From NCBI GenBank assembly GCA_025454925.1, contig JALONM010000003.1, positions 124,001 to 188,000 of the forward strand: DNA of 64,000 nucleotides, in the 5' to 3' direction. Shown here in pieces: positions 176 through 54,098 of the stretch. The notes below the pieces were generated by a model. It ran no database searches, had not been told where the DNA came from, and saw nothing but the letters and a program-made list of their open reading frames with translations. Both the position numbers and the translations under genes were made by a program. Source of the stretch: Cytophagaceae bacterium (lineage in GTDB: Bacteria > Bacteroidota > Bacteroidia > Cytophagales > Cytophagaceae). Numbering within the stretch: position 1 is the stretch's first letter; every line of letters begins with the position of its first letter.

Positions 176-438
176 CCAGGTTTAAATAGTAGAAACATTA
201 TTACATGTTTTGTAGTATTCAACCTATCATTTTACAGGCATGAAATTGGAAAAAAATTTAGTATTCCCAGCATAGAGGTGGCCTCAAAGCAGCTAAAATT
301 AGACTTGACCCAGACAAATCAGGGAATAAAGCGGATGAGCTAAAAAAATCAAAATAGACTATTACGTGAAAAGACGTAATCAAAGCGAAAAGATCATGGA
401 GACTAAGTAGTCAAAGGATGCATCGAATACCTAAAATA

Positions 439-1686: not shown

Positions 1687-1730
1687 TCAGCTTTGTCGAC
1701 CCCTATGTTACATTTTTTGAAGGAAAAAAC

Positions 1731-3194: not shown

Positions 3195-3204
3195 GAACGA
3201 TCAA

Positions 3205-4134: not shown

Positions 4135-4172
4135 ATCCTTAAAAATAGAAGAGGTCTCCCTCTTGATTGTCT

Positions 4173-4829: not shown

Positions 4830-4978
4830 GCGTGCTTCAATTTATTTGCTAACACATTCCACCAGTAGGAAAGTTCGTTAGGTTTGGGATCTTTCGTGCT
4901 TTGAAGAAGTTTTTATGCTACTCCTGCGAAAGGGGCAAAATACAACATTTGAATCTTTTTTGGAAGTTTCGGTGAACT

Positions 4979-13644: not shown

Positions 13645-14685
13645 CTATTTTTTGTTGGCCAGTTGTCCACATGCGGCGTCAATGTCCTTGCCGCGGCTCT
13701 TGCGCACATTTACTACCAGTCCTTTCGATTCAAGAAAGTGTTTGAATTTGGCGAGCCGGTCTTCGGTGGTATTGATGAATTGAGCCTCTTGGATAGGATT
13801 GTATTCGATGATGTTGATTTTGCAGGGAAACCGTTTGGAGAACAAATACAATTCTTTGGCGTCTTCGAGGCCATCGTTGAACTGATTAAAAACGATGTAT
13901 TCGAGGGTAATTTTATTTCCTGTTTTCTGATAAAAGTGTTGCAATGCCGAAGCCAAGGCATCGAGTGAATTGGATTCGTTGATGGGCATTATCTCGTTGC
14001 GCTTTTGATCGTTGGCGGCATGAAGCGAGAGGGCGAGATTGAACTTTACTTCATCGTCGCCTAGTTTTTGTATCATTTTGGCGATGCCCGCGGTGGAAAC
14101 AGTAATGCGTTTGGGCGACATGCCTAAGCCTTCGGGAGAACAGATCTTAGTCACCGACTCAAGGGTATTCTGATAATTGAGCAGGGGCTCGCCCATGCCC
14201 ATGTATACGATGTTGGTGAGTGGGGTTTGGTAATGCAGTTCGGCTTGCTGTCGCAACAATACCACCTGATCGTAAATTTCTGCTGCCTCGAGGTTGCGCT
14301 TGCGCTCCATGTAGCCGGTAGCGCAAAATTTGCAAGTAAGAGAGCAGCCAACCTGGGAGCTGATGCAGGCAGTCATCCGATCGTCGGCAGGTATTAAAAC
14401 ACCTTCGACTAAAAATCCTTCATGCAATTGGAAAGAGGATTTGATGGTGCCATCCTGGCTGACTTGCTTTTTATGAACTTTTACTGATTTAATATCAAAA
14501 TGAGCCTGAAGCAAGTCTCTCATTTTTTGACTCAGGTTGGACATTTGTTGAAAATCAACACAAGATTTTTTCCACAACCATTCTTCAATTTGCTTGGCCC
14601 TGAATGCAGGCTCTCCGTGCGCCTGTAAAAAGGCGACCAGGTCTTCCCGTTTGGTTTTTCGAATATCTTTTCTCGCTTCCGACAT
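13645..14685 (-). CDS. rlmN: 23S rRNA (adenine-2503-C2)-methyltransferase
   Basis: A radical SAM enzyme that methylates A2503 of 23S rRNA and A37 of some tRNAs. The C-x3-C-x2-C cluster motif reads CSLTCKFC, followed by ATGYMERKRNL and YMGMGEPLLNY, which are hallmarks of RlmN. The C-terminal cysteine needed for methyl transfer is present in DAACGQL. The length, about 346 residues from the ATG at 14685, is normal. A TTG-initiated frame from 14733 would add 16 residues without conservation. It is a housekeeping gene, divergent from the transglycosylase gene at 14917. Confidence 0.95.
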   Translation of the reverse strand: MSEARKDIRKTKREDLVAFLQAHGEPAFRAKQIEEWLWKKSCVDFQQMSNLSQKMRDLLQAHFDIKSVKVHKKQVSQDGTIKSSFQLHEGFLVEGVLIPADDRMTACISSQVGCSLTCKFCATGYMERKRNLEAAEIYDQVVLLRQQAELHYQTPLTNIVYMGMGEPLLNYQNTLESVTKICSPEGLGMSPKRITVSTAGIAKMIQKLGDDEVKFNLALSLHAANDQKRNEIMPINESNSLDALASALQHFYQKTGNKITLEYIVFNQFNDGLEDAKELYLFSKRFPCKINIIEYNPIQEAQFINTTEDRLAKFKHFLESKGLVVNVRKSRGKDIDAACGQLANKK

Positions 14686-14892
14686 GATAACAAAGGTACG
14701 ATTTTGTTCGTTGAATAGTAGTACCTGAATCAAATACCTTCGGTGCGAGCGCGAACCTGAATAAAATAGGGAATCACCGTGGTTTGGGTACCAAAGTTAA
14801 CATAAAAGTAAAACCCTTATCGTTTTTTTGAAAGCGGAAAAATTTATGACAGGTATTCCTTGTGCAGGAGCGCTTCAATTCAAAAAAAATGA

Positions 14893-14900
14893 TAACTTTG
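14893..14900 (+). promoter_or_regulatory. Candidate -7 box of the mltD-like gene
   Basis: TAACTTTG fits TAnnTTTG and lies 17 nt before the GTG start, implying a very short leader. No clear -33 TTTG was found. Confidence 0.4.
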
Positions 14901-14916
14901 TATTACTTAACAAGTT

Positions 14917-16434
14917 GTGAAGAAAGTAAAAAACTATAAAGGCTGGCTTAGTGCCTTACTCCTGGTGACTTGGATGGCCCATGCACAAGTAGATTCTTCG
15001 TCCTTCCGGGAGGAAGACGATACTGTGCCACCAGACAGCGTTTTGCAGGCAGATAAAGTCTTGGAAGGCGACACCATTGTGGAGGAAGTAGCCATTGAAA
15101 ATCCGGATAGCTCTGCGCTGGTTCCCAAAGACAGTGTGGCGGCAATTCCTGAAGACGTAGATCCGGATGCGGCGCTCATCCAGGAGCGTTTGAAAAATCT
15201 CCAAAACAACGTAGCCCTTACTTACAACAAGCGTGTAAAAGGTTTTATCGATTACTTCACCATACGCAACCGCAACTACCTGCTGGTGATGGAGCGAAGA
15301 AAGCACCAGTATTTCCCCATCTTTGAAGCGATCCTGAAAAAAAACGGACTGCCGGATGAAATCAAATATTTATCGGTAGTAGAATCAGGGCTTAATCCCT
15401 TTGCTGTTTCACCGGTAGGGGCCGCCGGATTGTGGCAGTTTATGCCGGGTACAGGAAGGGAAGTGGGTCTGATTGTTAACGAATACATCGACGAGCGCCT
15501 GGATCCTTACCGCGCAACCGAAGCAGCCTGTATCTATCTGTCGCGCTTGTATCGTTCTTTTGGAGACTGGGAGCTTGCCCTGGCTTCTTATAACTGCGGC
15601 CCGGGGGTGGTACGAAAAGCCATGCGTAAGTCAGGCCGAAATTCGTTTTACGGCATCTATGATTTTTTACCCCGTGAAACCAGAAGCTACGTGCCCCAAT
15701 ATACTTCCATTGCGTATGTAATGAATCACTTTCCCCATTACAATATGGTAGCGGATTCGCTGCAATACTTGCCGTTGACCGATACTGTATATTTCGACCA
15801 GTTAATCAACTTTCAGATTTTTTGTGAATCGTTGAATATTTGTTACGAAGACTTCTCACGTCTCAATCCAGCCTTGAGAACCAATATTCTTCCGGAGCAC
15901 ATGCGGTATCCGATACGCTTGCCGAAAGATAAAATGGTGGAGTACTGGGCCAGAAGATCGGAAATTAATTCCTGTTCGAACGTTCAAACAGAACCAGTAG
16001 AAGTCTTAACAACCAATAAACTCCGCTATCAGAAATCTTCGGGAACCACCGCTTCACATACCAATACTGCGTATCGTCAGAAAATCATTCATACGGTAAA
16101 GCGGGGAGATGTATTGGGCAAAATAGCCGGTAAATATGGTGTTAGCAGCGCTCAGATAAGAGCCTGGAATCATCTTAAAGGAAATACGATTAAACTAGGG
16201 CAGAAATTGGTAATTTACCGGGTTCGTTACGGCAGCAGCAGTTCAGGTACTTCCGTAGCGAAATCAAATTCCAATCCATCCTCCTCTGCGCCCAAGTATC
16301 ATTATGTGCAGCCAGGCGATTCCCTATGGTCTATTTCTAAGAAGTATGGAGGAGTTTCGGTTGAAAAGATCAAAAAACTGAATAACCTCAAAGACAACAA
16401 TATCAAGGTTGGACAAAAATTACAGCTCATATAG
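14917..16434 (+). CDS. Membrane-bound lytic transglycosylase, MltD-like, two LysM domains
   Basis: A 505-residue murein hydrolase that cleaves the glycan strand of peptidoglycan to form 1,6-anhydromuramyl ends. After a signal peptide (ends near MAHAQ, residue 24) and an acidic linker comes an SLT domain (~130-300): the catalytic glutamate E156 lies in VVESGLNP, followed by GAAGLWQFMPGTGRE and LALASYNCGPG. Two LysM peptidoglycan-binding domains follow (~388-432 and ~455-505; both with GD-x-L and a closing K-x-GQKL). The start is GTG at 14917. No lipobox is seen. The arrangement equals MltD of proteobacteria, including the pre-LysM spacer. Confidence 0.9.
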   Translation: MKKVKNYKGWLSALLLVTWMAHAQVDSSSFREEDDTVPPDSVLQADKVLEGDTIVEEVAIENPDSSALVPKDSVAAIPEDVDPDAALIQERLKNLQNNVALTYNKRVKGFIDYFTIRNRNYLLVMERRKHQYFPIFEAILKKNGLPDEIKYLSVVESGLNPFAVSPVGAAGLWQFMPGTGREVGLIVNEYIDERLDPYRATEAACIYLSRLYRSFGDWELALASYNCGPGVVRKAMRKSGRNSFYGIYDFLPRETRSYVPQYTSIAYVMNHFPHYNMVADSLQYLPLTDTVYFDQLINFQIFCESLNICYEDFSRLNPALRTNILPEHMRYPIRLPKDKMVEYWARRSEINSCSNVQTEPVEVLTTNKLRYQKSSGTTASHTNTAYRQKIIHTVKRGDVLGKIAGKYGVSSAQIRAWNHLKGNTIKLGQKLVIYRVRYGSSSSGTSVAKSNSNPSSSAPKYHYVQPGDSLWSISKKYGGVSVEKIKKLNNLKDNNIKVGQKLQLI

Positions 16435-35974: not shown

Positions 35975-37627
<1,653 letters not shown>

Positions 37628-40017: not shown

Positions 40018-41163
40018 TTAGGCATTGACGGTTGCCTGCACAATGCCAAGGGCGGATGCCCACCCTGCCACATCTTGTTTGCTAAGGGCAGCAGCCATCA
40101 ACGATGGAAAATGATTCGGGGTACAGGCAAACACCGATACTCCCTGACCAGCAAAAAAGGAGGCGTTGGCATGATCGTAAGAGGGAGCGCCTTCGTCGTT
40201 CAATGCCAGCAACACAATAATCTGAACGCCGGCAGCGACCAATTGAGTTACTGTTTTTTTCATTTCCAATTCCTGTCCACCTTCAAACAAATCACTTATC
40301 AGGACCAACACCGTATCGGCAGGACGTTCTACAACTTGCTCGCAATACCGCAAGGCACGCGCAATATCGGTACCTCCTCCCAATTGCACGCCAAACAACA
40401 ACTCCACCGGATCATTGAGCTGTTCTGTTAAATCTGCGACTTCGGTATCAAACACCACCATGCGGGTATGCAAGGCTGGAATGGAAGCCAATACCGCTCC
40501 AAAAATGCCGGCATAAACCACCGAAGTCCCCATGGATCCACTCTGGTCGATGCACAATACGACCTCTTTCAGTGACTTTCTCTTTCTGCCATATCCAATG
40601 CGAGTTTCAGGAATTACGGTATGGTATTCCGGTTGGTAATGTTTTAGATTTTTAAGTATGGTGGAATGCCAATCCATTTCTGTCATGCGTGGTCTTCGGT
40701 TGCGAGTACTGCGATGCAGACTCCCTTGCACGGCTTGTTGCGTAGGCGCTTGCAATGCATCCATCAATTCTTGCACCACACGCTGTACCACCCTGCGGGC
40801 GGTAGCCTTTGTCTTCTCCGGAATTAATTTTCCCAATGACATCAGGTTGGCCACCAGGTGTACATCGGGCACTACCGATTCGAGCATTTCGGGCTCGGTA
40901 AGCATACTGGTAAGTTGCAAACGTTTTAAGGCATCCTGCTGCAATACTTTTACAACAGACGCCGGAAAATACTCACGGATATCTCCGAGCCAACGAGCCA
41001 CATTGGGAGACGAAGGGCCCAGGCCTCCCTTTCTGTCTCCTGCATTATACAAGGCTTCCAACGTTTTATCAAGGTGACTGTCGATGCCACTTAAGGCCGC
41101 AGGAAATTCTTCCCGCACTTCCGCCCCCAATACCAACCTCCATTTGCGTTCCAATTCATCCAT
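40018..41163 (-). CDS. VWA domain protein of a MoxR-VWA system
   Basis: A 381-residue cytoplasmic protein. The N-terminal ~195 residues are helical. The von Willebrand A domain follows, with a complete MIDAS: D206-x-S208-x-S210 (DQSGSMG), T265-D266 in GGGTD, and a third D in SDLFEGG. In characterised MoxR systems (for example RavA-ViaA, CbbQ-CbbO) the VWA protein binds the AAA+ ring through Mg2+ at the MIDAS and delivers a client. Here it is the distal gene of a cassette with a MoxR ATPase, DUF5682, DUF5691 and a SWIM protein, 55 nt after a methyltransferase gene. The intact MIDAS indicates a functional adaptor. Confidence 0.85.
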   Translation of the reverse strand: MDELERKWRLVLGAEVREEFPAALSGIDSHLDKTLEALYNAGDRKGGLGPSSPNVARWLGDIREYFPASVVKVLQQDALKRLQLTSMLTEPEMLESVVPDVHLVANLMSLGKLIPEKTKATARRVVQRVVQELMDALQAPTQQAVQGSLHRSTRNRRPRMTEMDWHSTILKNLKHYQPEYHTVIPETRIGYGRKRKSLKEVVLCIDQSGSMGTSVVYAGIFGAVLASIPALHTRMVVFDTEVADLTEQLNDPVELLFGVQLGGGTDIARALRYCEQVVERPADTVLVLISDLFEGGQELEMKKTVTQLVAAGVQIIVLLALNDEGAPSYDHANASFFAGQGVSVFACTPNHFPSLMAAALSKQDVAGWASALGIVQATVNA

Positions 41164-41218
41164 ACTGTGCTGGCTATTGCTTATTTCCAGAATTTATGCG
41201 TTTCTGAGGAATCGGTTT

Positions 41219-41872
41219 TTACTGAACTTTAAAAAACTGAGACTCCAATTCATACACTCTATTTTCCACGACCAAATCGGGCTCTTTTACTTCCTTATAT
41301 TCAACCAAGGTAAAACCTGCTTGCTTCACTAATTCTGTTACCTCAGCAGCTTCAAATAACCGGAAATTATATTGCGTGACAGGCAACTTTTCCATCACTC
41401 TCTTACTTCTATTAGCAATGGTAAATGTTGCATCAGGCAATAATATCTTTTTGATTGATGTAAGCACCAACAATGGATTTTCCCAAAAATACATGGTGTT
41501 TACGGTGAAGATATTGGAAAAGGTGGGCTCCTTCCAGGGCAATTCTTCTACGCTGCCCGCCATGAAATGAGCCTGCCCGGAGGCTACCTGTGTTTGGTTC
41601 AAGCGGATCGACTCTTCCACCATCAGCGCTGAATAGTCGTAACCGGTATAGAATATACCTGGCGCTTGTTGCAATACGGTGGGAACAAAATAGCCATTCC
41701 CCATGCCAATTTCCAAGACCCGGTCATTCTCTTTCAAGCCTAGAAAATCGATGGCATCCAGATTCATTTTCCGGTTGTTTATATTCATCCATTCGGCTAT
41801 TGCTATGCCCGCATCACCCTGGGGTTTTCTTAATTGGGCTGCCCGATGTTTAACAATCTCTTCTTCGTTCAT
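41219..41872 (-). CDS. Class I SAM-dependent methyltransferase
   Basis: About 217 residues from the ATG at 41872. A frame reaching back to 42043 overlaps the DUF5682 gene and is unlikely. Motif I, VLEIGMGNGYFVPTVL, and the following Y-D-Y-S acidic loop are those of SAM-binding Rossmann methyltransferases; the later NIFTVNTMYFWENP matches motif post-I of UbiE/COQ5-type enzymes. The substrate is unknown. It begins 4 nt after the DUF5682 stop, so it is tightly coupled to the MoxR-VWA cassette, although a conserved role there is not established. It could have joined the operon by chance. Confidence 0.82.
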   Translation of the reverse strand: MNEEEIVKHRAAQLRKPQGDAGIAIAEWMNINNRKMNLDAIDFLGLKENDRVLEIGMGNGYFVPTVLQQAPGIFYTGYDYSALMVEESIRLNQTQVASGQAHFMAGSVEELPWKEPTFSNIFTVNTMYFWENPLLVLTSIKKILLPDATFTIANRSKRVMEKLPVTQYNFRLFEAAEVTELVKQAGFTLVEYKEVKEPDLVVENRVYELESQFFKVQ

Positions 41873-41876
41873 AGAG

Positions 41877-44099
41877 TTACGATGTAATTGGTAAAAGTAT
41901 TTGTGATAGCACCGGCAATAGGCATATCGCCCGTTCTTCCTGAATTGAATATTCAGCCCTTGGCAGCGTGTTGGTGCCGCCCCCTGCACCAAGCTGCGCT
42001 TTGCGGGCAAGCATGCGACGCTCTGCCACACTAAACCCTGCAAATGTTCTCCGTAATAAAGGTACTATGCTTTGGAACTGTTCCCAGCTAAGTCTATTCA
42101 TCCAGGAATGTACCAATAACCAAAGGCTTTCTTCGTATAACAACGTGGCAGAGCTGCCTTTTAAAAAACTCTCCAGCCACCAGGCTGCCCGCATCGGTTC
42201 TACTGATGAAGAAAGTGCACGAAGAAAATATTGTTCCAATTTCCCATTCTCCAATTGGTGAGCATCCATCAATAATTTGGTAGCCAAGCCGGAGAGCAAC
42301 GGCTGCACTTGTATATCATCGCACAGTACTAGCAAAGTGCTATGCCAGGAAGACCAATAGTTTTCCTGTTGAAGTATTTGCAATCCCTGGTCGGTTTGCC
42401 TCATTAACTCACAAAGTTGTTGGGCTGCGTCTTCATCTAAGGAAGCAGCGGCCGAAGGAAGGCCAATACAACTGCGGGTAAACAAGCCATCCATAATTAC
42501 TGAAACCAACTGCGTATCAGTTTTTCGCACATCGCCGTATCGACGCACCTGAATCAAGGGGATGAATGCCCTCAATAAATCCTGTACATCGCGGCTGCCT
42601 GCTGCTGCCTTTTCCAGTTGTTCGCTGGCAATCACAAATGCCTCTGGCAATTCCGCAGGCAAACATGCCAACAGTAAGTTGGTGAGTTGAGGCAAGCTAG
42701 GACCTTTTATTACCTGATGTTTCAGGAACGCGGCTGCCGCTTCTTCCACGGTATTTCCCCAGATAGCATTTTCAACCAGACGTATCATCATTTCCGGATT
42801 CCACTCCAGGTTCCAGGCTTCTTTAAAAGTTCCCTTCCCTTCCAGGTCAGAAAGGGTAGCCCAGTCTAAGCCTAATACCTGCAGGCGATGCAGAAAAACA
42901 CTCTTCTGCAGATCGTAGGCTTCGCGCAGATCTAATACTAAGGTATGTGGTTCCTGCTTGGGCTTTAACCTCAGTTTTTTTTGACACGCTTCAAAGTCGC
43001 GCTGCAAGGGAGTTTGCGGAGCTCCTTCAGGAATTTCACCCAATTGATTCCCTACCCATAAATCGCGTTCTATCAATTGCAAGGGCAACGCTTCTCCCAT
43101 GCACATGACCGATTGAATCGCCTCTTTGAATTCTTTTAACCCCGGTTGACTCAAGCCCCGCAAGGATGCCAAGGCGGAAGACAATCGCACTGTTTCCTGC
43201 ACATGAGCAGTGGATACATCCATACGATGCGTTCTAAATATCTGAGCGGTCTTTACCAGCCAGTGTATCCCTTCCCGGTCATTGTGATTCCATACATGCT
43301 CATACCAACCAGGCGATTTAATGCCGGCACCATAACCACTTTCTAATCCAAGGCGTTCGTTCGTCCAAGGTATCCAGGTGGCTTCTACTGCGGCTTTAGG
43401 GAGCTTTTTCATCAAGGCCTCATCGGACTTAGCCGGTGGCCTGTTTTGTAAGGCCGGCACATGCCAGGCTCCGCATACCACCACGATGCACTGATAATCT
43501 TCGTCTTCCGCTTTCCGAATGGCTTTGCGCATAAACGCTTCCCGCAACAAATCTTCCTCATCTTCTGCCTCGTCTGCACGCAAGGCCGCCATTGCCTCGG
43601 CAATGGCCTCAAATGCCTCCAGGGCTCCATGCCTGCGCTCCACCAGTTGCTCCCACCATTCATCCTCATCATCAAACCCATCCAGCGAGGCCAAATAATC
43701 CAAGGGATGCTGATGTCCGCACCTGGCTGATGTATTCTTTCCTTCCGAAACAACGATGCGCTCTTCTTCGGGCTGCAAGGCTCGTCCAAACTTATATGCA
43801 AGAGGCAAATCGATAAACCGCACGGGAATATTTTTTTGCAAAGCATAGTGCATCGCCTGCCATTCCGGTGAAAAAACAGTAAATGGATAAAAAACTGCGT
43901 GGCGTGTATCCTGAGGCACATACATCAACATGGCCACAGGAGGCTTCATCTGCGCATGCAATACCCAAGGCAACAGGCGTTCTCCTTCCGGAGGACCCTC
44001 CACCAGTACTATGTCAGGTTGCAGTTGCTCCATCGCCGACAACAAGTGCCGTGCTGATCCTGGACCGTGATGACGTATGCCTAAATAATACGTTGCCAA
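41877..44099 (-). CDS. DUF5682 family protein, EreA/ChaN/TraB-like N-terminal domain
   Basis: A 740-residue cytoplasmic protein, recognised as DUF5682, a family that accompanies MoxR-VWA genes. The N-terminal 220 residues show motifs that I read as the EreA/ChaN/TraB hydrolase-like superfamily: GIRHHGPGSARHL (H10/H11), PDIVLVEGPPE (E34), REAFMRKAI, and VVVCGAWHV (H213), in the order expected of that fold. The remaining ~500 residues are helical, with heptad-like leucines and a predicted scaffold role. The start is TTG at 44099, since an in-frame stop lies just upstream and no ATG precedes the conserved GIRHH. It lies between the MoxR gene (44 nt) and a methyltransferase (4 nt). A catalytic role is inference. 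Confidence 0.75.
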   Translation of the reverse strand: MATYYLGIRHHGPGSARHLLSAMEQLQPDIVLVEGPPEGERLLPWVLHAQMKPPVAMLMYVPQDTRHAVFYPFTVFSPEWQAMHYALQKNIPVRFIDLPLAYKFGRALQPEEERIVVSEGKNTSARCGHQHPLDYLASLDGFDDEDEWWEQLVERRHGALEAFEAIAEAMAALRADEAEDEEDLLREAFMRKAIRKAEDEDYQCIVVVCGAWHVPALQNRPPAKSDEALMKKLPKAAVEATWIPWTNERLGLESGYGAGIKSPGWYEHVWNHNDREGIHWLVKTAQIFRTHRMDVSTAHVQETVRLSSALASLRGLSQPGLKEFKEAIQSVMCMGEALPLQLIERDLWVGNQLGEIPEGAPQTPLQRDFEACQKKLRLKPKQEPHTLVLDLREAYDLQKSVFLHRLQVLGLDWATLSDLEGKGTFKEAWNLEWNPEMMIRLVENAIWGNTVEEAAAAFLKHQVIKGPSLPQLTNLLLACLPAELPEAFVIASEQLEKAAAGSRDVQDLLRAFIPLIQVRRYGDVRKTDTQLVSVIMDGLFTRSCIGLPSAAASLDEDAAQQLCELMRQTDQGLQILQQENYWSSWHSTLLVLCDDIQVQPLLSGLATKLLMDAHQLENGKLEQYFLRALSSSVEPMRAAWWLESFLKGSSATLLYEESLWLLVHSWMNRLSWEQFQSIVPLLRRTFAGFSVAERRMLARKAQLGAGGGTNTLPRAEYSIQEERAICLLPVLSQILLPITS

Positions 44100-44143
44100 T
44101 CGTTCACTACTTTAAATGAAGTTAGATTCCCCCCAAGGCAAGC

Positions 44144-45223
44144 TTAGGCTTGCTGATCGCGACAAGCGCGGTATATATCTTTCCAACCATCCCGCTGTTT
44201 TAATACCGTTTCCAGGTATTCCTGCCACACCAGTTTATCCTGCACAGGATCTTTCACCACTGCACCTAAAATTCCGGAAGCAATATCGGAGGCGGTAAGT
44301 TGTCCGTCGCCGAAATGATGCGCCAAAGCCAGACCGCTGTTCATGACTGAGATCGCCTCTGCCGTGCTTAAACTGCCACTGGGCGATTTGATTTTACTCT
44401 TGCCGTCTAAGGTTAGCCCTTGTCGCAGCTCACGAAAAATGGTAACTACTCGTTTGATATCTTCGGCAATTGGTTTTTCTACCGGCAACTCCATAGATTT
44501 ACCAAAGCTGTGTACACGTTGTTCCACAATATCCATTTCTTCTTCCAGCGTAGCAGGTAAGGGTAAGATCACGGTATTGAAACGTCGCTTCAGGGCACTG
44601 GACAATTCGTTGACTCCTTTATCCCGGTTGTTGGCAGTAGCAATCAGGTTAAATCCGGCTATGGCTTGCACTTCGGTATTTAATTCCGGAACAGGCAATG
44701 TTTTTTCGGAAAGAATGGTAATGAGTGAATCTTGCACATCCGAACCAATGCGGGTTAATTCTTCCAAACGAACTATTTTACCAAGGCGCATGGCACGCAT
44801 TACCGGAGTTTCTACGAGGGCTTCGGGTACCGGTCCGGAGGCCAGCAAGCGTGCGTAATTCCATCCGTAGCGAATGGCTTCTTCACCCGTACCGGCAGTT
44901 CCTTGCACCAGCAGCGTAGAGTCGCCGGAGATGGCCGCTGCCAGATGTTCCGACACCCAGGATTTGGCCGTTCCAGGCAGCCCATACAACAGCAAAGCCC
45001 GGTCTGTGGTGAGGGTGGCCACCGCGATCTCGATCAAACGGCGGCTACCAATATACTTAGGAGAAATTTCAACCCCATTAGACAGCTTCCCTCCCATGAG
45101 GTACTGCACCACTGCCTGTGGCGAAAGTTTCCATTGTGCAGGCTTACGCCCCTGATCGGCATGCTGCAATGCTTCCAGCTCGCTGGCAAACTGTACTTCC
45201 GCATGTTGTCGTAAAACGCTCAT
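44144..45223 (-). CDS. MoxR-family AAA+ ATPase
   Basis: A 359-residue ATPase that should form a hexameric ring and remodel client proteins with its VWA partner. Walker A is GLPGTAKS (81-88). The Walker B position reads VRLEELTR, with E in place of the usual D before the catalytic E. Sensor 1 is in LIATANNRDKG and the arginine finger in SALKRRF. A C-terminal helical lid completes the fold. It belongs to the MoxR subgroup linked to DUF5682 genes. It follows the PEBP gene by 40 nt and precedes DUF5682 by 44 nt, all minus strand. Confidence 0.88.
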   Translation of the reverse strand: MSVLRQHAEVQFASELEALQHADQGRKPAQWKLSPQAVVQYLMGGKLSNGVEISPKYIGSRRLIEIAVATLTTDRALLLYGLPGTAKSWVSEHLAAAISGDSTLLVQGTAGTGEEAIRYGWNYARLLASGPVPEALVETPVMRAMRLGKIVRLEELTRIGSDVQDSLITILSEKTLPVPELNTEVQAIAGFNLIATANNRDKGVNELSSALKRRFNTVILPLPATLEEEMDIVEQRVHSFGKSMELPVEKPIAEDIKRVVTIFRELRQGLTLDGKSKIKSPSGSLSTAEAISVMNSGLALAHHFGDGQLTASDIASGILGAVVKDPVQDKLVWQEYLETVLKQRDGWKDIYRACRDQQA

Positions 45224-45263
45224 GGTATTTCGAGGTTAGAATACACCGGAACCTCCGGTTAGT

Positions 45264-45815
45264 TTATCGTTTGTAATAAAATACTAAAGAAGATTTTGCC
45301 AGTGTATTGGCATTTAAATAATACCCAACTGTGGCAGGACTAGCTTTACCATCCAAGCCCAATTTATCTACGCTCAAAGCGTACACGGTAATGATGTATT
45401 GATGAAAGCCGTGACCGGGAGGTGGGCAAGGACCGCCAAATCCAGCCATACCAAAATCGGTAATACCCTGAATGGCTCCTGGAGGTAGCAAATTCTTTGC
45501 TGGATCCCCTGCTCCTTCTTTTAGTTCTGTTACTTGTGCAGGCAAGTCAAACAACACCCAATGCCACCATCCGCTTCCAGTGGGCGCATCCGGATCGTAC
45601 ATGGTTATGGCGAAGCTTTTAGTTCCGGCGGGAACATTTTTCCAACTTAATTGAGGCGACATATTTTCACCTGAACAGCCAAAGCCTTTAAACTCCTGAC
45701 GGGTTGTGCCTTGTCCGCCAACGCTATTGCTGCTTAACGTAAAGGTGGCGCTTGTGTTTTGAGCCATACCCATTGCCACCAGCAACAGACACGCGATTCT
45801 AAAAATAGTTTTCAT
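45264..45815 (-). CDS. YbhB/YbcL-type PEBP (Raf kinase inhibitor-like) protein, secreted
   Basis: A 183-residue phosphatidylethanolamine-binding-protein fold with an added signal peptide (first ~19 residues, ending MGMAQ), so it should work in the periplasm. The PEBP motif YDPDAPTG with WWHWVLFDLP, and the later GFHQYIITVYAL that replaces the usual GxHRY, form the anion-binding pocket. E. coli YbhB and YbcL are relatives of unknown or signalling function. Its ATG overlaps the stop of the DUF5691 gene by 4 nt, so it is translationally coupled within a cassette whose other members look cytoplasmic; this is unexpected. Confidence 0.85.
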   Translation of the reverse strand: MKTIFRIACLLLVAMGMAQNTSATFTLSSNSVGGQGTTRQEFKGFGCSGENMSPQLSWKNVPAGTKSFAITMYDPDAPTGSGWWHWVLFDLPAQVTELKEGAGDPAKNLLPPGAIQGITDFGMAGFGGPCPPPGHGFHQYIITVYALSVDKLGLDGKASPATVGYYLNANTLAKSSLVFYYKR

Positions 45816-47326
45816 AGGTTTGATATAGTTTGAATTTGTTTTTTACGTTCCATCACAGACATCATTTGAGTTGCACGGGTAGCAAAGTAGGCCCGTTCGT
45901 ACCGACGCATGTCCGTGTCTTGTACTTTCGATTGTAAGTATGCATAAAAATGATCAGGCATGCGCAACGCCAGCATTCCATATTCTGCGATACTGATGGA
46001 ATAGGGTGATTTTTCGAGCCATGCCAAAACCTCTTGCATCAATTCTGCAGGCCACAGCTGTATGTCTGCATCGCGTTGCAGAAGGTATACCAATACACTG
46101 CGTTTATTGCTTTCGTCGGCATGCCTCCATTGTATAAAGCATTCATGCAAAGTTAGAAGATCAAACAAATCAGGAAACTTTCCAGGAAAGGCTTTTGAAA
46201 GCACCACAGCCGCATGCTTGCTTTCAAACAATACCGCAGCCGTGACCATGGCATGTGCCAGTCCTACTGTTTCTTTTTCTTTGCGAAGAGATTGTACCAC
46301 CTCCTCCAGCGACCATGAACTATGTTGCTCCCACCATTCAGGGGGAACCCAGCAACATAGCTGCTCCATCCAATATACGTGGTCTGCTTTGCCCTTTTCA
46401 GAACTTATCTTTTGTAATCCCGAACGAAATACCTCCTCGTCCTGCAATTCAAAAGACTTTATCCGTATCCTTTTTTGTTTTTGCAATGTTAGGTCTCGTG
46501 TTTCAGAAAATTCAAGACCTTGTGACAAGTTTTCTGCATACCGCTTTACCAATGTGCTGGTAGGAATCATGCGCAACAAGGCATATGCGGTATCGCGTAC
46601 TTTCACGCTTTTATCTTGAAGTTGCTGCTCTAAAAATGGGATATCACTTTCCCGAAGAGTATCCGAAAGAACATCCAGCAGTTCACTGCGCATGGCTGCC
46701 GGCTCCGTATTAAAAGCTGTCAATAATAATTGCAACGCTTCATCCGGTTTTTCCTCTCGCAACTGTTTTATAAACCTAAGTCGCTGTTCTTTAGTTCCCG
46801 TCTTCCAATCTTCTTCCGACACACTTTCTGAACGAATCAGCATCGACCACTCTGCATTCAGAGAGGCCAGCCATTTTCCGCGCTCACCGCACACTTCCAA
46901 AAAACGTTGTCTCCAGGGCTCTCGCTCCATAATGGCCATAGACAGCAAGGCAGGCACCTGCTGCGGCGGCGCCAATTGTCCGGAGGCATGCAGGGTTTGT
47001 ATCAGAAAATACAATAAGGGCTTTTCTTCCTGTTGGTTTCCCAGCAACGAAAGCAAGGATGAAAAAGAAGCGGAGGCATAGGACTTGGACTCCTGGGGCG
47101 CCATAAATGGCTCTTCATTGGAAATAGAAAATGTTATGCCGGCCTCTGCGTAAGCAAAGTAAGAAGCACAGCATTTTATAAAAAAATCTTCCCTGTCATC
47201 GGCAGGTAACTGTTGCAAAAGCGCACGCAGTCCTCCAGGATATTGATCAATGGAAGGGAGGTAGCGACTAGTGCCCAATTGCACCGTTTTTAAAATTTCT
47301 TCTTCTGTAGGATTTCCTGTTTGCAT
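45812..47326 (-). CDS. DUF5691 family protein
   Basis: About 504 residues from the ATG at 47326 (a TTG at 47335 would add three). All-helical with HEAT-like pairs, for example QQLQDKSVKVRDTAYALLRM and EAVQ-like repeats, so it is probably a scaffold. The opening EEILKTVQLGTSRYLPS is a mark of DUF5691, known only from conserved neighbourhoods with SWIM and MoxR genes. It ends with many charged residues (ERAYFATRATQMMSVMERKK). It lies 12 nt after the SWIM gene and overlaps the PEBP gene by 4 nt, indicating one transcript. No catalytic motif is seen. Confidence 0.7.
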   Translation of the reverse strand: MQTGNPTEEEILKTVQLGTSRYLPSIDQYPGGLRALLQQLPADDREDFFIKCCASYFAYAEAGITFSISNEEPFMAPQESKSYASASFSSLLSLLGNQQEEKPLLYFLIQTLHASGQLAPPQQVPALLSMAIMEREPWRQRFLEVCGERGKWLASLNAEWSMLIRSESVSEEDWKTGTKEQRLRFIKQLREEKPDEALQLLLTAFNTEPAAMRSELLDVLSDTLRESDIPFLEQQLQDKSVKVRDTAYALLRMIPTSTLVKRYAENLSQGLEFSETRDLTLQKQKRIRIKSFELQDEEVFRSGLQKISSEKGKADHVYWMEQLCCWVPPEWWEQHSSWSLEEVVQSLRKEKETVGLAHAMVTAAVLFESKHAAVVLSKAFPGKFPDLFDLLTLHECFIQWRHADESNKRSVLVYLLQRDADIQLWPAELMQEVLAWLEKSPYSISIAEYGMLALRMPDHFYAYLQSKVQDTDMRRYERAYFATRATQMMSVMERKKQIQTISNL

Positions 47327-47338
47327 GCTTTCCAATCC

Positions 47339-48652
47339 TTAGGTCCAACAAGAAATTATTTCGGAAGTATTCCATACAGATTCCAGCCTCCATTGTCCCT
47401 GAATAAAAAGCACCAGGGCATTCATGCTCGCTCCTCCACTCCAGGCAAGAACTTTCCAGCACTCTTCCGGATCGTTGCAAAGTGGTAATATTCGATTTCC
47501 TGCATCTCGTACATGCCATTTTTTCTGTATTCTTATCAACTGTACTTCTTTCAGGAGAAGGGGAATTCTATTGGTAAATGGAAACACTGCCATTTGCTGT
47601 GCTATTTGTCCGGCGGCATCTTCCAGATCGCTTAGGCCTGCCGGTGAAAAGAAAGACGTTGGTGTGTAAGGTTCTTTTATTAATGCTCTTAAGGGCATCA
47701 GCGAAGAGTAATAACACAACTCAGCATTTATAGCCATGCCGGGTACGAGGGAATGCAACGGTCGTTGTGCTCCAAAATAAAAGTTTAATACCAACGCCAT
47801 CCGGGCTTTATTTCTGCCATACAGCCAGATATATTCAGCGTTCATCTCCTGCTGTTCTTCCATTCTGCGAGCCATTACCAACCATTCGTCGCGGTGTGCT
47901 TCCCCCGTCAGCACATCCTCCTTACTGGTATTCCAGCCTATGAGCTGCCGCACCTCTTGCCGGAATAAAGGACTTTGTTGATCCTCTTTCAAAAAGCTTT
48001 CGGTAATCAAGTATATTTTCGACAAGTGCTTGCTAAGTTGTAGCGGCCAGCGGTCTTCAAATACATTTACCTCGCCCACCTGCCGCATCATGGCTGCTAG
48101 CCCGGGAGCTTTCGCATCTACCAGTCGGGCGGCCATGTTTTCATGAAAACTCCCTGCTTGTGACGGAAGATGCATCATGCCAGTGCGCATCAAATCGGCG
48201 ATCCATTGACGGAGCTCCAGTATACCATCCCGCACACTTCGCTCGCGGGCCTCGCTTCGCTTAGTGGAAGCGTCGGAGGTATTTTTACTTTTTTCAGTCG
48301 GATTTTTTTCTGCAGGCGCTTGTTCCTTTTGTCTCCGCTTCTGAATCCATTCCGAAACAACGGATGGCATTTCTTGTGACGAAAATTGATTGGGCTGACG
48401 AACCCATAACAGAATTAAAGCAATACCATGCTTGCAAGGGAATTTCCGACTGGGGCAAGTACATTGAAACGCCCATTGCTGCACGTCTACACGGGTAAAG
48501 TACGGATCTTTGCCTGAGCCCTGACAATACCCCCAGATCGCTTCGGTATGTTTAGCCAGGCCTTTCCATTTAGAAAGCACGGCAAGAGCAGTACCTGCTT
48601 TAGCGGAAGCGGCGTCGGGAGCCAGTTGTCTTACGTGATCTTCAGTTATCAT
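47339..48652 (-). CDS. SWIM zinc-finger protein heading the MoxR-VWA cassette
   Basis: About 437 residues from the ATG at 48652 (a TTG at 48658 would add two). The SWIM motif C66-x-C68-x6-C75-x-H77 (CTCPSRKFPCKH) binds zinc and may contact DNA or protein. An additional C45 lies in WGYCQGSGKDPY, a conserved lead-in. A basic linker (KRRQKEQAPAEK and more, ~105-145) precedes a helical C-terminal region without recognised motifs. It is the first gene of the cassette and follows about 150 nt of unassigned DNA, so the operon promoter should lie there. It is a candidate DNA- or substrate-recognition subunit. Confidence 0.82.
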   Translation of the reverse strand: MITEDHVRQLAPDAASAKAGTALAVLSKWKGLAKHTEAIWGYCQGSGKDPYFTRVDVQQWAFQCTCPSRKFPCKHGIALILLWVRQPNQFSSQEMPSVVSEWIQKRRQKEQAPAEKNPTEKSKNTSDASTKRSEARERSVRDGILELRQWIADLMRTGMMHLPSQAGSFHENMAARLVDAKAPGLAAMMRQVGEVNVFEDRWPLQLSKHLSKIYLITESFLKEDQQSPLFRQEVRQLIGWNTSKEDVLTGEAHRDEWLVMARRMEEQQEMNAEYIWLYGRNKARMALVLNFYFGAQRPLHSLVPGMAINAELCYYSSLMPLRALIKEPYTPTSFFSPAGLSDLEDAAGQIAQQMAVFPFTNRIPLLLKEVQLIRIQKKWHVRDAGNRILPLCNDPEECWKVLAWSGGASMNALVLFIQGQWRLESVWNTSEIISCWT

Positions 48653-51227: not shown

Positions 51228-54098
51228 TTATTCTTTATACAGCTCTTTCAAGGTTTGATTGCCCTTTTTGGGCAGGGATAACCAAACAGAACCTGTCTTG
51301 CGGCTTTCCCAGCGTTTCTTCACCAGCAGATACGTCGACGATTCCAATGGCAAACATTCTGCCTTATTCAAAACATCTTCAATGTTCTCCAGGTAATACG
51401 ATACCCAGGCTTCCAATTGTGCCTTCTCCACGTCAGGCTTTTTAATGTACCAATACAAGACTCTTGAAAACGGCTTGTATTGTGTATTCTGAATGGTTTC
51501 TTCAGACAATGCAATGGCTCCTTTTCCATTCGTGGAAACCTGATCGTCTATTTTCAGAATTTTAATCTTAGTCTTTGCTGCCAAATAACTTGAGTACCGC
51601 ACCACTCCCAATGCGTATTTCTTTTTCCCTACCCAATTTGCCAACAATTCACCATCGTACTCTTTGGTGTAATCATCGCGCAGTTTCAGGTCCGTTCCAA
51701 GTTGAGAAGCCATAAATGCATAGTCGGAGGATGATTTTCCGGAAGCATACAACAAGATGGGTTCTTTAGGCCATTGGCTGCGAATCTGATTCCAATGGGT
51801 GATCTTATCTTTGCCTTGCAATCCCCAAATTTTCTTCAACTCTTCTACGGTAATATCGGCCGCCCAGGTATTTTCTGCATTAACAATAAATGCCAGGGAT
51901 TCATACGCAACCGGCAATTCAATGTATTCCACTTTATTGGCTTTGCAAAGACTGTCTTCCTGGAATGAAATAGGGCGCACTGCCTGCACTACATCTAAAT
52001 ACCCTCCTGTAAAATCCTTCATCGCAGACCCTGTTCCGTAATCATCCAGATGCACTACTTTATCCGGATGTTCGTCGTTATAAGATTCTAACACTAATTC
52101 AGTGGCCCTGAGCATAGATCTGGTACCATCGATGGAAACAGCCGGTATCACTGGCTCGGCATAAGACTTTTTCTCTGAATCTCGTTCTGTTAAATCACTG
52201 AATAAATGAACGAGGGCATGAAGGGAATTAGAATGCTCGTTGGGAGTGGATACTGAAACATCCGTAGCAAATGCTTTTCGTTTTTTACCCTTTCCTGTAA
52301 TCTCAACAAGTCCCGAATATTTTTGTGCAAGGAACCAATCAGGGTCAGACACTCCTTCTTCGGCAGATTTGATACTGCTTAAAATTTGTTTTACATCGGC
52401 TACAAAAGCAAAAGAGTTTTTCCGCATCAGATTTGCGTACTGGCGGCTTACTGGCTTGCGTTTGGACTTCCCAATCAGAATATTTAGTTGTTCTTCTGAA
52501 TTACAAATATATACTGCTTTCTTACGAATAACCACATACAAGGTGAATGGCATACTTCCTGGAAAAGGTCCAGCAGAATAATATTGATATTTACTGTTGT
52601 ATTGAAGAAGTCCTTTCTTTTTAAAAATGCTAAAAAACTTTTTGTTGCTTGCAGCATCGGAAGTAGCATACATCCACACAAATTCCGGAATTGCCTGCTG
52701 ACGCGTTTTTACTACTGGCACCAGAGAATAACTGGAATCGTATTCATAGGTAGTATAGGAAATTTCCTTTTGGCTAATGCCAGTGCAAGCCGCCAGCATT
52801 TCTCCATTCATTACTTTTGAAATAGCCTTTTCATCAATCAACAAAAAGAAAAGATCCATGATCTCATCGGCAATATCATTGGTATAAGGCAAAATCCTCA
52901 GATAATCTTTCCAAATTTCTGGCATTTCATTTAAGAGAGCTCTCGTACTCATTGCTGAAGAAACAAAACCAAGAAGTTGATCGCCTTTTACGTTGCGGAT
53001 CAAGCGACGATCCAAACGAGCGTTGTAGATGCGATGATAGCGATTGGCCACGCGTTTATCCAAGTACGTTTTGGATGAAACCTTGATTTGATTTTCCCCG
53101 AAAATAAGGGTTGTTACCAGAAAATTATTCTCATTAAATACCGGAGAATTTACCGGCATAGCATATTGATAAAAATAGGAACCCAGGGATTTTTTTAACA
53201 CTTTGAGAAAATAATCCTTTTCCATTCCTATCCACAAAACCATATCAGCATGAGGATGCAAGTGTTTGGCAAATCGCGGATTCTGCAAGATGGAAGCAGA
53301 ATTTTCTCCCGCCAATATTTTTTGTGCCTGCACCATGGATTGGCGTAAGGATAGATGATCGTGAAATTCAAAATACGGTTCGTTGTTAGCTTCTTCACTG
53401 GGTACATCAATTAATGAGTAGCCGGGGGCTAATTCTTCGTAGTAAAATGGGTCGTAATCATCGTCCTCGTCTTCATCGGCGATGTAGGCAATGGTATCGG
53501 TATCGTTAAACCTGGGAGCCCGTGGAGGCAAGGCCATTGTATCTACAAAAATATCCGCCGGAGCTTCATCGTAGGAAACAGCTGTATCAAACGGAGCAGC
53601 ATAAGTGTAATCATCGTCGGATGCCCTCATTTCATCCTCTACCTCGGACGTAACGAAAACACCCATCTTGTCGTTCCACATGAGCACATCCCGATATCCT
53701 TCAACATAATAATTACCATATACATCCGTCCGTATGCTGTCGTTCTTATCATGAAACTTTTTGAATTTTTCCTTATCTGAAACAGAAAAAACAAAACAAC
53801 TTAAGGTGGCAGTGTCGGTATGTTCTATAAAAAACACCGACTGCTTATTCCATTCAAAACCGATATCCATATTCAAAAAGGCTAAGGAATCGGGGTCTTT
53901 GGTTTCCTTAATTAGTTTTTGAATAAATGGAATCTGATGTATATCCTTTAAGGACATTTTAGATTCCATTCGATGGGCGTTTATGGTAAGAACCGTAGAT
54001 ACATTTTTTAAAGGTACCCGGTTTAAAAACCCTTGCGCCAAGCTGGCTAAGCTGAGCCCAAGGAAAAAGATACCTAGTACGGTAATGCGTGCTTTCAT
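51228..54098 (-). CDS. Fusion of DUF4836-like and PstS-like domains
   Basis: A 956-residue exported protein with a signal peptide (ends near LASLAQG). Residues ~25-645 look like DUF4836 or a related Bacteroidota surface family: NAHRMESKMSLKDI early, an acidic low-complexity patch (EDEDDDYDPFYYEE) near 210-225, and LLGFVSSAMSTRALLNEMPE in the middle. From ~654 on comes a phosphate-binding PstS-like periplasmic domain: SIDGTRSMLRATELVLESY, DDYGTGSAMKDF, RPIS, LAFIVNAENTW, VEELKKIWGLQGK and the GKSSSDYAFM stretch. The fusion is unusual. Its ATG overlaps the stop of a lipoprotein gene. The ligand, phosphate or something else, is not decided. Confidence 0.65.
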   Translation of the reverse strand: MKARITVLGIFFLGLSLASLAQGFLNRVPLKNVSTVLTINAHRMESKMSLKDIHQIPFIQKLIKETKDPDSLAFLNMDIGFEWNKQSVFFIEHTDTATLSCFVFSVSDKEKFKKFHDKNDSIRTDVYGNYYVEGYRDVLMWNDKMGVFVTSEVEDEMRASDDDYTYAAPFDTAVSYDEAPADIFVDTMALPPRAPRFNDTDTIAYIADEDEDDDYDPFYYEELAPGYSLIDVPSEEANNEPYFEFHDHLSLRQSMVQAQKILAGENSASILQNPRFAKHLHPHADMVLWIGMEKDYFLKVLKKSLGSYFYQYAMPVNSPVFNENNFLVTTLIFGENQIKVSSKTYLDKRVANRYHRIYNARLDRRLIRNVKGDQLLGFVSSAMSTRALLNEMPEIWKDYLRILPYTNDIADEIMDLFFLLIDEKAISKVMNGEMLAACTGISQKEISYTTYEYDSSYSLVPVVKTRQQAIPEFVWMYATSDAASNKKFFSIFKKKGLLQYNSKYQYYSAGPFPGSMPFTLYVVIRKKAVYICNSEEQLNILIGKSKRKPVSRQYANLMRKNSFAFVADVKQILSSIKSAEEGVSDPDWFLAQKYSGLVEITGKGKKRKAFATDVSVSTPNEHSNSLHALVHLFSDLTERDSEKKSYAEPVIPAVSIDGTRSMLRATELVLESYNDEHPDKVVHLDDYGTGSAMKDFTGGYLDVVQAVRPISFQEDSLCKANKVEYIELPVAYESLAFIVNAENTWAADITVEELKKIWGLQGKDKITHWNQIRSQWPKEPILLYASGKSSSDYAFMASQLGTDLKLRDDYTKEYDGELLANWVGKKKYALGVVRYSSYLAAKTKIKILKIDDQVSTNGKGAIALSEETIQNTQYKPFSRVLYWYIKKPDVEKAQLEAWVSYYLENIEDVLNKAECLPLESSTYLLVKKRWESRKTGSVWLSLPKKGNQTLKELYKE

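Follow-up and report, generated by a model that had tools for sequence, protein, structure and literature searches.

A five-gene YehL-type MoxR-VWA set in a Cytophagaceae bacterium and the predicted TIKI-like fold of its DUF5682 protein

A gene run on the minus strand

The window, a stretch of 64,000 nucleotides from a Cytophagaceae bacterium, contains a run of seven genes on the minus strand between positions 40018 and 48652. The run begins with the gene for a SWIM zinc-finger protein (47339..48652; PF04434, E 3e-5) of 437 aa, counted from the ATG at 48652, and continues with that of a DUF5691 protein (45812..47326; PF18944, 4e-75). The latter had been described as a HEAT-repeat-like scaffold, which agrees with a match to HEAT_2 at 2e-4, below the cut-off. 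After a gene for a PEBP of the YbhB/YbcL family (45264..45815; PF01161) come those for a MoxR-type AAA+ ATPase (AAA_5) of the YehL type (44144..45223; PF07728, 2.5e-36) and for the DUF5682 protein, a YehM homologue of 740 aa with a TTG start (41877..44099; PF18934, 8e-243). A class I SAM methyltransferase gene, recognized by Pfam (41219..41872), stands before the last gene, which encodes a YehP homologue, a VWA_CoxE protein with a MIDAS motif (40018..41163; PF05762, 1.4e-49). The methyltransferase is listed as an open reading frame at 41219-42043, and its likely start is the ATG at 41872, 4 nt past the DUF5682 stop.

Using ATG starts, the gaps are 12 nt between SWIM and DUF5691, 40 nt between PEBP and MoxR, 44 nt between MoxR and DUF5682, and 55 nt between the methyltransferase and VWA, and the PEBP and DUF5691 genes overlap by 4 nt. 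The preliminary description of five core families in a single run with such gaps is thus borne out by the open reading frames and the Pfam matches. It had also treated PEBP, inserted between DUF5691 and MoxR, and the methyltransferase, inserted between DUF5682 and VWA, as interruptions, and rightly so, because homologues of these two genes were present in none of 80 related loci (the best 80 of at least 589). For the same reason they are regarded as passengers and ruled out as parts of the system; from this comparison of sequences, each gene was probably inserted in this lineage. No strict Bacteroidota-type promoter was found upstream of SWIM, and the count of sigma-70-type sites was not above expectation. 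Terminator-like sites exceeded expectation (22 versus 12.4, sd 4.4). A ZIP gene adjoins the cassette in the window.

The ATPase and MIDAS motifs had been described as intact, and this was confirmed. The MoxR protein has its Walker A motif GLPGTAKS (residue 81), Walker B motif LEE (residue 153), sensor 1 and arginine residues, and the motif residues of MoxR, of the VWA MIDAS and of SWIM are invariant or nearly so across relatives. In the SWIM motif, Cys-x-Cys...Cys-x-His, the residues Cys66, Cys68, Cys75 and His77 are kept in 61 of 62 relatives, the remaining row having a gap; beyond the motif, the large C-terminal region of the protein matches nothing in Pfam. When the PDB was searched by sequence, MoxR matched only midasin, and no relative was found for VWA, SWIM or DUF5682, the DUF5682 search giving only a haemoglobin at 0.13.

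Linkage of the five parts in other genomes

Having identified the genes of the run, we compared their neighbourhoods and co-occurrence, and the view of the five families as one system was upheld. The loci were the best 80 of at least 589 DUF5682 matches, therefore divergent members, for example of the E. coli type, are under-sampled. All five families, in the order SWIM-DUF5691-MoxR-DUF5682-VWA, are present in 60 of these best 80 loci, MoxR, DUF5682 and VWA are found together in 68, and all 351 core matches lie on one strand. The 20 loci without a full separate set include contig ends, two planctomycete loci (L084 and L039) in which SWIM is fused to DUF5691, a locus from Saprospiraceae (L026) that has only MoxR-DUF5682-VWA, and several DUF5682 genes on their own. 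In the latter (L021, L045, L054 and L062), DUF5682 stands alone as far as the view of the locus extends, and this counts against the model that we favour below. Another fusion, of DUF5682 to VWA, is found in Streptomyces atratus. Taken from gene structure, the SWIM-DUF5691 and DUF5682-VWA fusions suggest direct contacts between those parts.

Among 296 genomes from the phylum, including that of the window, DUF5682 was found in 7, DUF5691 in 8 and both in 7 (hypergeometric 2e-13, with relatedness ignored); two of the eight DUF5691 matches fall below the family cut-off, one in a genome with DUF5682 (G217) and one in a genome without it (G072). Sixteen genomes were then probed for the other four parts, which were present in all 8 with DUF5682 and in none of the 8 without. 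In five of the probed genomes the cassette genes are scattered and the parts are still present. One VWA match in this probe (G095) has one in-frame TAG. The DUF5682 genomes outside the probe are that of the window (G000), G018, G016 and G081, which have all five parts in the region; G217, whose region has DUF5682, MoxR and the weak DUF5691, without VWA or SWIM; G049 and G009, on short contigs; and G033, where DUF5682 is split in two frames. Because all five families occur in 60 of the best 80 of at least 589 loci, and given the sharing in 296 genomes and the 16-genome probe, linkage by chance is ruled out, and judged by these sequence comparisons the five genes are a real and widely conserved bacterial set.

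A sixth family, DUF4132, recurs as a neighbour in 12 of the 80 loci (again the best 80 of at least 589) and is optional; among the 16 probed genomes it occurs in 3 of the 8 with DUF5682 and in 1 of the 8 without. In a rhizobial copy of the cassette, a WGR-DUF4132 gene is inserted.

The system had been called undescribed, and this is too strong. E. coli K-12 carries yehL-yehM-yehP-yehQ and YehL is a named subfamily of MoxR ATPases (PMC3893208), so this machine has been on record before. E. coli has the same adjacent order MoxR-DUF5682-VWA, plus a SWIM protein. The window MoxR is 38.6% identical to YehL over 355 aligned columns (E 8.5e-70) and is assigned to the YehL type by this pairwise similarity, not by a tree of MoxR subfamilies. 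The window VWA is 36.2% identical to YehP (E 7e-75), and DUF5682 shares 29.2% identity with YehM across 500 aligned columns, hhalign giving 100% for this pair across 670 columns. However, DUF5691 was not found in E. coli in control searches, and E. coli YehQ is placed last and shares only the SWIM motif with the window SWIM protein (24 columns, probability 2.7%). In addition, a DUF4132 protein, YehI, lies upstream in E. coli, whereas DUF4132 was not found in the genome of the window. Among the papers listed by a literature search for YehL, YehM, YehP or YehQ, which mostly matched other uses of the letters, none gave a function, so that one may have been missed.

The cassette also resembles the MoxR-vWA ternary systems in having MoxR, VWA and a dedicated third component (Kaur et al. 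2020, PMC7159879, in the part available). In this case the third component is DUF5682, and by Pfam the seven proteins of the window include no VMAP, iSTAND or beta-propeller (bpX) partner; against bpMoxR, the MoxR protein of the window reaches 24.9 bits, under the cut-off of 27. Other vWA systems have been linked to CRISPR loci, and SWIM is named in a legend there (PMC10910872, from the portion at hand).

A conflict or defence function had been considered possible. Read in this way, the cassette would be an anti-phage or conflict system akin to those of Kaur et al., and the shared logic of MoxR, VWA and a third component, as set out in the accessible text of PMC7159879, is in keeping with this, as are the patchy occurrence of the cassette (10 of 58 relatives) and its presence at times on plasmids. 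Also, four Chitinophaga loci that are close relatives (L019, L030, L057 and L082) have a DUF4011 helicase-nuclease adjoining the cassette on the opposite strand, and the L082 copy, the one scanned of its cluster, has a full-length match to the candidate defence model PDC-S37 and a partial match to Hhe. We nevertheless consider a defence function very unlikely. The partners typical of the ternary systems are absent, as described above, and no core part has a clear PADLOC match, the best of the five being weak (IetA 1e-3, HEAT-ARM 5e-4). For 100 of the 113 genes beside the cassette, 32 PADLOC families were matched, none in more than one gene among the 25 listed, and for 100 of the 293 genes at least four positions away, 22 families were matched, none in more than two genes; genes above 900 residues were excluded from both sets (9 near, 7 far). 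Six of the nine large near genes were scanned separately, with no match in five and the PDC-S37 match in one, the L082 DUF4011 gene. How many distinct genes were matched cannot be read from the PADLOC tables, therefore this comparison is a rough test of enrichment in defence islands; it revealed no recurring family near or far, and on the other side stands the PDC-S37 gene that adjoins the cassette in a single clade of Chitinophaga.

The DUF5682 tree, made by a quick method and with the window and YehM rows on long branches, is nearly coherent by phylum (12 label changes, against a minimum of 8 and a shuffled mean of 35.4), which also argues against defence. Two peptide patterns found no relative in 2.9 million viral contigs, and among 50,697 phage records there was one, an unverified metagenome contig. 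Overall, PADLOC, the tree and the viral searches leave a conflict or defence function unsupported, the Chitinophaga DUF4011 neighbour being the sole result in its favour. A virus element was rejected as well, since none of the 42 pattern matches in viral contigs is a relative. PHROGs includes one DUF5682-like and one VWA-like family, so some viral or prophage records exist.

Predicted fold and candidate active site of DUF5682

DUF5682 is predicted to combine a TIKI/Ere-like alpha/beta domain at its N-terminus (about residues 1-260) with a HEAT-like helical-repeat solenoid in its C-terminal part (about 449-707). The full-length protein was modelled by AlphaFold2 with a pLDDT of 90.1 and a pTM of 0.83. 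Foldseek gave weak matches to this model, chiefly helical-repeat, and therefore the N-terminal domain was modelled separately (residues 1-318; pLDDT 88.5, pTM 0.86). Among its structural neighbours by VIA-align, the first three ranks are taken by one Tetrahymena complex IV subunit, so named by entry title (7w5z_E, Z 10.2-10.3), and ranks 4-13 are ChaN (Z 8.0), HopBA1 (7.2), 2qgm and BcR135 (6.9-6.5), EreC (6.8/6.6) and the C-terminal region of PMT (6.3-6.1), followed by an unrelated histidine phosphatase (Z 5.9). The entry 2qgm is presumably a member of the TIKI/Ere superfamily. ChaN, HopBA1, BcR135, EreC and the PMT C-terminal region are placed in this superfamily in the available part of PMC6254334. 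The identity of 7w5z_E did not emerge from a search with E. coli YbaP. The predicted model has the alpha/beta core with a parallel sheet of ChaN, EreC and HopBA1, a likeness of moderate strength, and the Z-scores are middling, values below 8 perhaps reflecting a common arrangement.

The Pfam TraB model matched 1 of 71 members of the DUF5682 family (E 0.011), and hhalign of DUF5682 with E. coli YbaP, a single TraB sequence, gave a probability of 0.3%. Because significant sequence similarity to TraB, EreA or ChaN is lacking, we call DUF5682 TIKI-like and not a member of the superfamily. To our knowledge, a C-terminal solenoid and a steady association with MoxR-VWA are not known in the TIKI/Ere/ChaN superfamily. 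What is new is the predicted architecture, in which a HEAT-like solenoid carries a TIKI/erythromycin-esterase-like domain whose His-Glu-His is invariant.

Of the 80 loci (the best 80 of at least 589), 79 keep His10 and Glu34, the other having a gap, and all 80 keep His213, Arg186 and Glu187; all five residues are also present in E. coli YehM. In the model, His10, Glu34 and His213 sit at strand ends, 1-3 residues after predicted strands 2-8, 30-33 and 204-210. Such near-absolute conservation across nine phylum labels and E. coli suggests a catalytic or metal site, and the earlier proposal of DUF5682 as effector or client fits an enzyme-like N-terminal domain as predicted here. In RRSP, a TIKI-family endopeptidase, the active-site His and Glu of the 2His/2Glu set lie near core strands (PMC6254334, partial text). 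DUF5682 has Ile8 at the position of the second Glu of RRSP, two residues before the first His. This missing Glu, and the existence of superfamily members without catalytic residues (PMT, same partial source), would be consistent with DUF5682 not being an enzyme, its N-terminal domain serving as a binding fold and the protein as a scaffold or adaptor. However, the conservation of the five residues speaks against this, and we regard it as improbable.

Perhaps the site handles a metal. DUF5682 might receive a metal or cofactor from MoxR-VWA, or might itself bind haem or metal like ChaN, which is haem-binding by its entry title and, of the named TIKI-fold neighbours, matches best. The VWA protein of the window belongs to the CoxE family, and both NorQD and CoxD-CoxE have a part in metal insertion (PMC7159879 and PMC13036017, as far as the available texts go). 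Genes read as SUF iron-sulfur assembly occur some genes away in a few of the best 80 of at least 589 loci (8 have a member of an ABC ATPase cluster, 6 a desulfurase-like gene and 4 a SufD-like gene), mainly in Chitinophaga with one Flectobacillus, the Pfam check (ABC_tran) covering the ABC ATPase only. However, these genes lie several positions from the cassette and in few lineages, and the neighbour clusters from the same best 80 loci show no metalloenzyme or metal transporter that recurs immediately next to the cassette, the ZIP gene of the window not being among the clusters. A maturation or metal-handling role appears quite unlikely.

A regulated hydrolase as a possible client

The reading that we favour, tentatively and at somewhat less than an even chance, is that DUF5682 is a regulated hydrolase at the centre of a YehL-type MoxR-VWA machine. 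We infer that DUF5682 (YehM) would be the catalytic component, through its N-terminal domain and His10, Glu34 and His213, and that the MoxR hexamer, coupled through the VWA MIDAS, would spend ATP in remodelling it. This remodelling would switch DUF5682 into, or out of, its active state, possibly with metal loading, and SWIM and DUF5691 would form a recognition and scaffold arm bringing the substrate. From the modelled fold, a peptide or an ester is the most likely substrate. Remodelling of a target is reported for MoxR-VWA pairs, and NorQD helps metal insertion (PMC13036017, available section). Like the NorQ-NorD and CoxD-CoxE chaperones, the cassette would pair a MoxR hexamer with a VWA partner, here of the CoxE family; those chaperones target a respiratory or molybdenum enzyme, whereas the constant companion in the cassette is DUF5682, with SWIM and DUF5691.

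The same anatomy would also serve an ATP-dependent protease. SWIM-DUF5691 would then pick the substrates, and MoxR-VWA would unfold them or pass them on to a DUF5682 peptidase, which would cut them and not itself be remodelled. The fold neighbours include peptidases and esterases, with RRSP as the TIKI-family endopeptidase (PMC6254334, in part), and the Streptomyces fusion joins VWA to DUF5682. However, known MoxR-VWA pairs remodel and do not feed a proteolytic chamber, according to the accessible portion of PMC7159879, and we consider this alternative unlikely, if worth keeping in mind. Further reaching, and rather unlikely, is a new kind of intracellular hydrolase or protease that depends on ATP and has no kinship with Clp, Lon, FtsH, HslUV or the proteasome, in which a MoxR-VWA motor gates DUF5682 as a TIKI-fold peptidase. 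Nucleic-acid-type adaptors (SWIM and, in some lineages, WGR-DUF4132) would choose its substrates, so DNA-bound proteins might be processed. This link to DNA comes only from domain names, the rhizobial WGR-DUF4132 insertion and the report of a Deinococcus radiodurans DUF4132 protein under DdrO control and up after mitomycin C (PMC8533742, partial text).

With this analysis YehL, a named MoxR ATPase subfamily in E. coli K-12 and many phyla, gains a definite list of parts, which stay together even where the operon is broken up, and true parts are told from passengers. The candidate active site, His10, Glu34 and His213 in the window protein and aligned in YehM, offers targets for mutation. In this system a motor driven by ATP appears to govern a protein that resembles an enzyme cutting proteins or esters. 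Should DUF5682 prove to be a hydrolase that MoxR-VWA controls, two protein superfamilies would be joined between which we know of no earlier link.

The five-gene core and its linkage

Open reading frames and Pfam matches confirmed the preliminary description of the cassette, in which five core families form one minus-strand run with a PEBP and a methyltransferase gene: SWIM (47339-48652), DUF5691 (45812-47326), PEBP (45264-45815), MoxR AAA+ (44144-45223), DUF5682 (41877-44099), methyltransferase (about 41219-41872) and VWA_CoxE (40018-41163). The intergenic gaps given there are correct, provided that SWIM and DUF5691 begin at ATG, and the motifs it took to be intact (the ATPase motifs, the VWA MIDAS and the SWIM ligands) are all present.

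Species-representative genomes were searched with a DUF5682 alignment, yielding at least 589 relatives, and the best 80 loci were retained and scanned with profiles of the window proteins plus their relatives. Among these 80 we found VWA in 71, MoxR in 70, DUF5691 in 67 and SWIM in 62, with MoxR, DUF5682 and VWA jointly in 68, and all 351 core matches were co-oriented on a single strand. The order SWIM-DUF5691-MoxR-DUF5682-VWA was found in 60 of the 80, including two loci with one part matched twice and three with DUF4132 between DUF5682 and VWA. PEBP and the methyltransferase, each present in 0/80, were set aside as passengers. SWIM and DUF5691 are fused as a single protein in two planctomycete loci (L084, L039), and a Streptomyces atratus plasmid (L123, 11113-14877) encodes a DUF5682-VWA_CoxE fusion of 1255 residues with MoxR adjoining and a DUF4132 gene two genes ahead of MoxR. 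These fusions suggest that the parts are in contact.

Among 296 genomes sampled from the window's phylum, its own included, DUF5682 was found in seven, DUF5691 in eight and both in seven (hypergeometric 2e-13, relatedness ignored). Six of the eight DUF5691 matches were above the family cut-off, the others being G217, which has DUF5682, and G072, which lacks it. Eight genomes with DUF5682 and eight without were then searched for MoxR (cut-off 1e-20), VWA (1e-10), SWIM and DUF5691 (both 1e-3), and all four were present in each of the former, whereas not one of them turned up in any of the latter; the VWA match of G095 contains one in-frame stop. Five of the eight genomes with DUF5682 (G019, G041, G056, G095, G232) have the cassette genes spread over several contigs, and those of G048 are divided into two blocks separated by about 25 kb. 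Co-occurrence of the parts even when they are not adjacent is strong evidence for a joint function.

Two other genes of the window were also recorded. At a distance of about 2.4 kb from the cassette is an intact-looking GroEL gene, recognised by reading the sequence (36002-37627, plus strand); the neighbour clusters that recur in the best 80 loci showed no chaperonin. A 956-residue protein (51228-54098, minus strand) joins, by Pfam, a DUF4836 stretch to a C-terminal phosphate-binding-type PBP_like_2 domain (residues 649-903), an unusual-looking combination.

Relation to E. coli yehLMPQ

In E. coli K-12, yehL (MoxR), yehM, yehP (VWA) and yehQ (SWIM) are consecutive, with yehI, a DUF4132 gene by Pfam, upstream. 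The window MoxR, DUF5682 and VWA proteins are homologues of YehL, YehM and YehP (38.6, 29.2 and 36.2% identity respectively), and YehM aligns to the DUF5682 profile along nearly its full length. YehQ and the window SWIM protein have the SWIM motif alone in common. Control searches did not find DUF5691 in E. coli. A rhizobial plasmid carries the order MoxR-DUF5682-WGR/DUF4132-VWA-SWIM; a search of the window's own genome did not find DUF4132, which is present in 12 of the best 80 window-type loci. These gene sets define at least two architectures around a MoxR-DUF5682-VWA core, and the window system is the broad form of yehLMPQ with DUF5691 added.

YehL is one named MoxR subfamily (PMC3893208, PMC11432383). 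Among the matches listed in the open-licence literature there was no functional study of yehL, yehM, yehP or yehQ, and the two papers that name at least two of these genes are strain-genome papers, as judged by title and start of abstract. The term DUF5682 is absent from the same literature, in which no paper pairs any of the terms DUF5691, DUF5682 and 'SWIM zinc finger'; a function may be published elsewhere. In Deinococcus radiodurans, two DdrO targets that increase after mitomycin C are a protein with DUF4132 and one with WGR (DRA0165-DRA0166, DR2173; PMC8533742), which may point to DNA damage in the case of variants that carry DUF4132.

On an E. coli IncF conjugative plasmid with several resistance genes (NZ_CP103756.1, L101), two IS26 transposase genes flank a yehI-to-yohO chromosomal segment containing yehLMPQ homologues, an apparent capture of chromosomal DNA. 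DUF5682 of locus L117 (G033:C70, 8722-11095), which neighbours a DUF4132-type gene as well as MoxR and VWA, is split into two open frames and is perhaps a decaying copy. On a Methylosinus trichosporium plasmid (L100) with an otherwise complete cassette, VWA is broken into three overlapping frames (14217-15382), and insertion sequences lie nearby.

Inheritance and the question of defence

A defence role, which the preliminary description had considered, is improbable. The five core proteins gave no good match to PADLOC models, and no PADLOC family recurred in scans of 100 genes near the cassette and 100 farther away. An exception comes from four related Chitinophaga (L019, L030, L057, L082), in which a DUF4011 helicase with an MTES_1575-type nuclease domain adjoins the cassette on the opposite strand; the copy scanned, that of L082 (13388-18052), matches the candidate defence model PDC-S37, which makes a defence role very slightly more likely. 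Conflict MoxR-vWA pairs have been proposed to derive from CoxD-CoxE, in a paper on ternary systems whose main text does not mention SWIM, TraB or EreA (PMC7159879).

The flanking clusters that recur in the best 80 loci are shared chiefly by closely related genomes, and most look like housekeeping genes; a pirin, an ABC ATPase and an AraC-type regulator among them were checked by Pfam. The DUF5682 tree lies near the phylum labels, with all 43 Bacteroidota rows in one fully supported clade and 12 changes enough for nine labels. The patterns used found no relative in viral contigs, and 30 of 72,556 plasmid records, several of them chromosome-sized, contain one. The distribution is patchy, at 10 of 58 relatives (the window's own genome not counted). 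Taken together, these results are more in keeping with an accessory function of long standing, for the most part inherited and frequently lost, than with a mobile defence island. An unverified 'Bacteriophage sp.' record from a human faecal sample (MT835988.1, L098) carries MoxR-DUF5682-VWA at 253-4876 and, since viral contigs gave no relative, is more likely a bacterial contig.

DUF5682 fold and a candidate mechanism

For full-length DUF5682, AlphaFold2 confidently predicts (pLDDT 90.1, pTM 0.83) that an alpha/beta domain at the N terminus is combined with a helical solenoid at the C terminus, the latter resembling HEAT-type and other helical repeats in structure matches. The N-terminal 318 residues were modelled alone (pLDDT 88.5, pTM 0.86), and the 1000 best Foldseek chains were re-aligned by VIA-align. 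A Tetrahymena complex IV subunit was the top match (Z 10.2-10.3, rmsd 5.2-5.3, 189 residues), followed by ChaN (8.0), HopBA1 (7.2), 2qgm and BcR135 (6.9-6.5), EreC (6.8/6.6) and PMT (6.3-6.1). Below these came unrelated histidine phosphatases (5.9 downward), and amid them two toxin entries (5.6 and 5.4), the TIKI endopeptidase RRSP as judged by residue numbers. In the ranking by Foldseek itself, the Tetrahymena chain was again the top match (7.6e-4), with BcR135 in third place (0.047).

PMT, HopBA1, Bcr135 and ChaN are listed in the TIKI superfamily, for which a 2His/2Glu active site has been described (PMC6254334). Five residues of DUF5682 (His10, Glu34, Arg186, Glu187, His213) are retained in 79-80 of the best 80 loci and also in YehM, and three of them, His10, Glu34 and His213, directly follow strands in the N-terminal model. 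Unlike the 2His/2Glu set, DUF5682 has no second Glu ahead of the first His; because of this, almost no sequence similarity to the superfamily and middling structural Z, we describe the predicted domain as TIKI-like rather than assign it to the superfamily.

In NorQD, the ATPase twists its VWA partner, so that the target is remodelled and metal inserted (PMC13036017). By analogy, MoxR-VWA may act on DUF5682 and switch it as a putative intracellular hydrolase, to which SWIM-DUF5691 would bring substrate. The main rival is an ATP-dependent protease, in which MoxR-VWA would feed substrates to DUF5682. What is new here is the co-occurrence test, the gene fusions and the interpretation of DUF5682 as TIKI-like, with residues open to testing.
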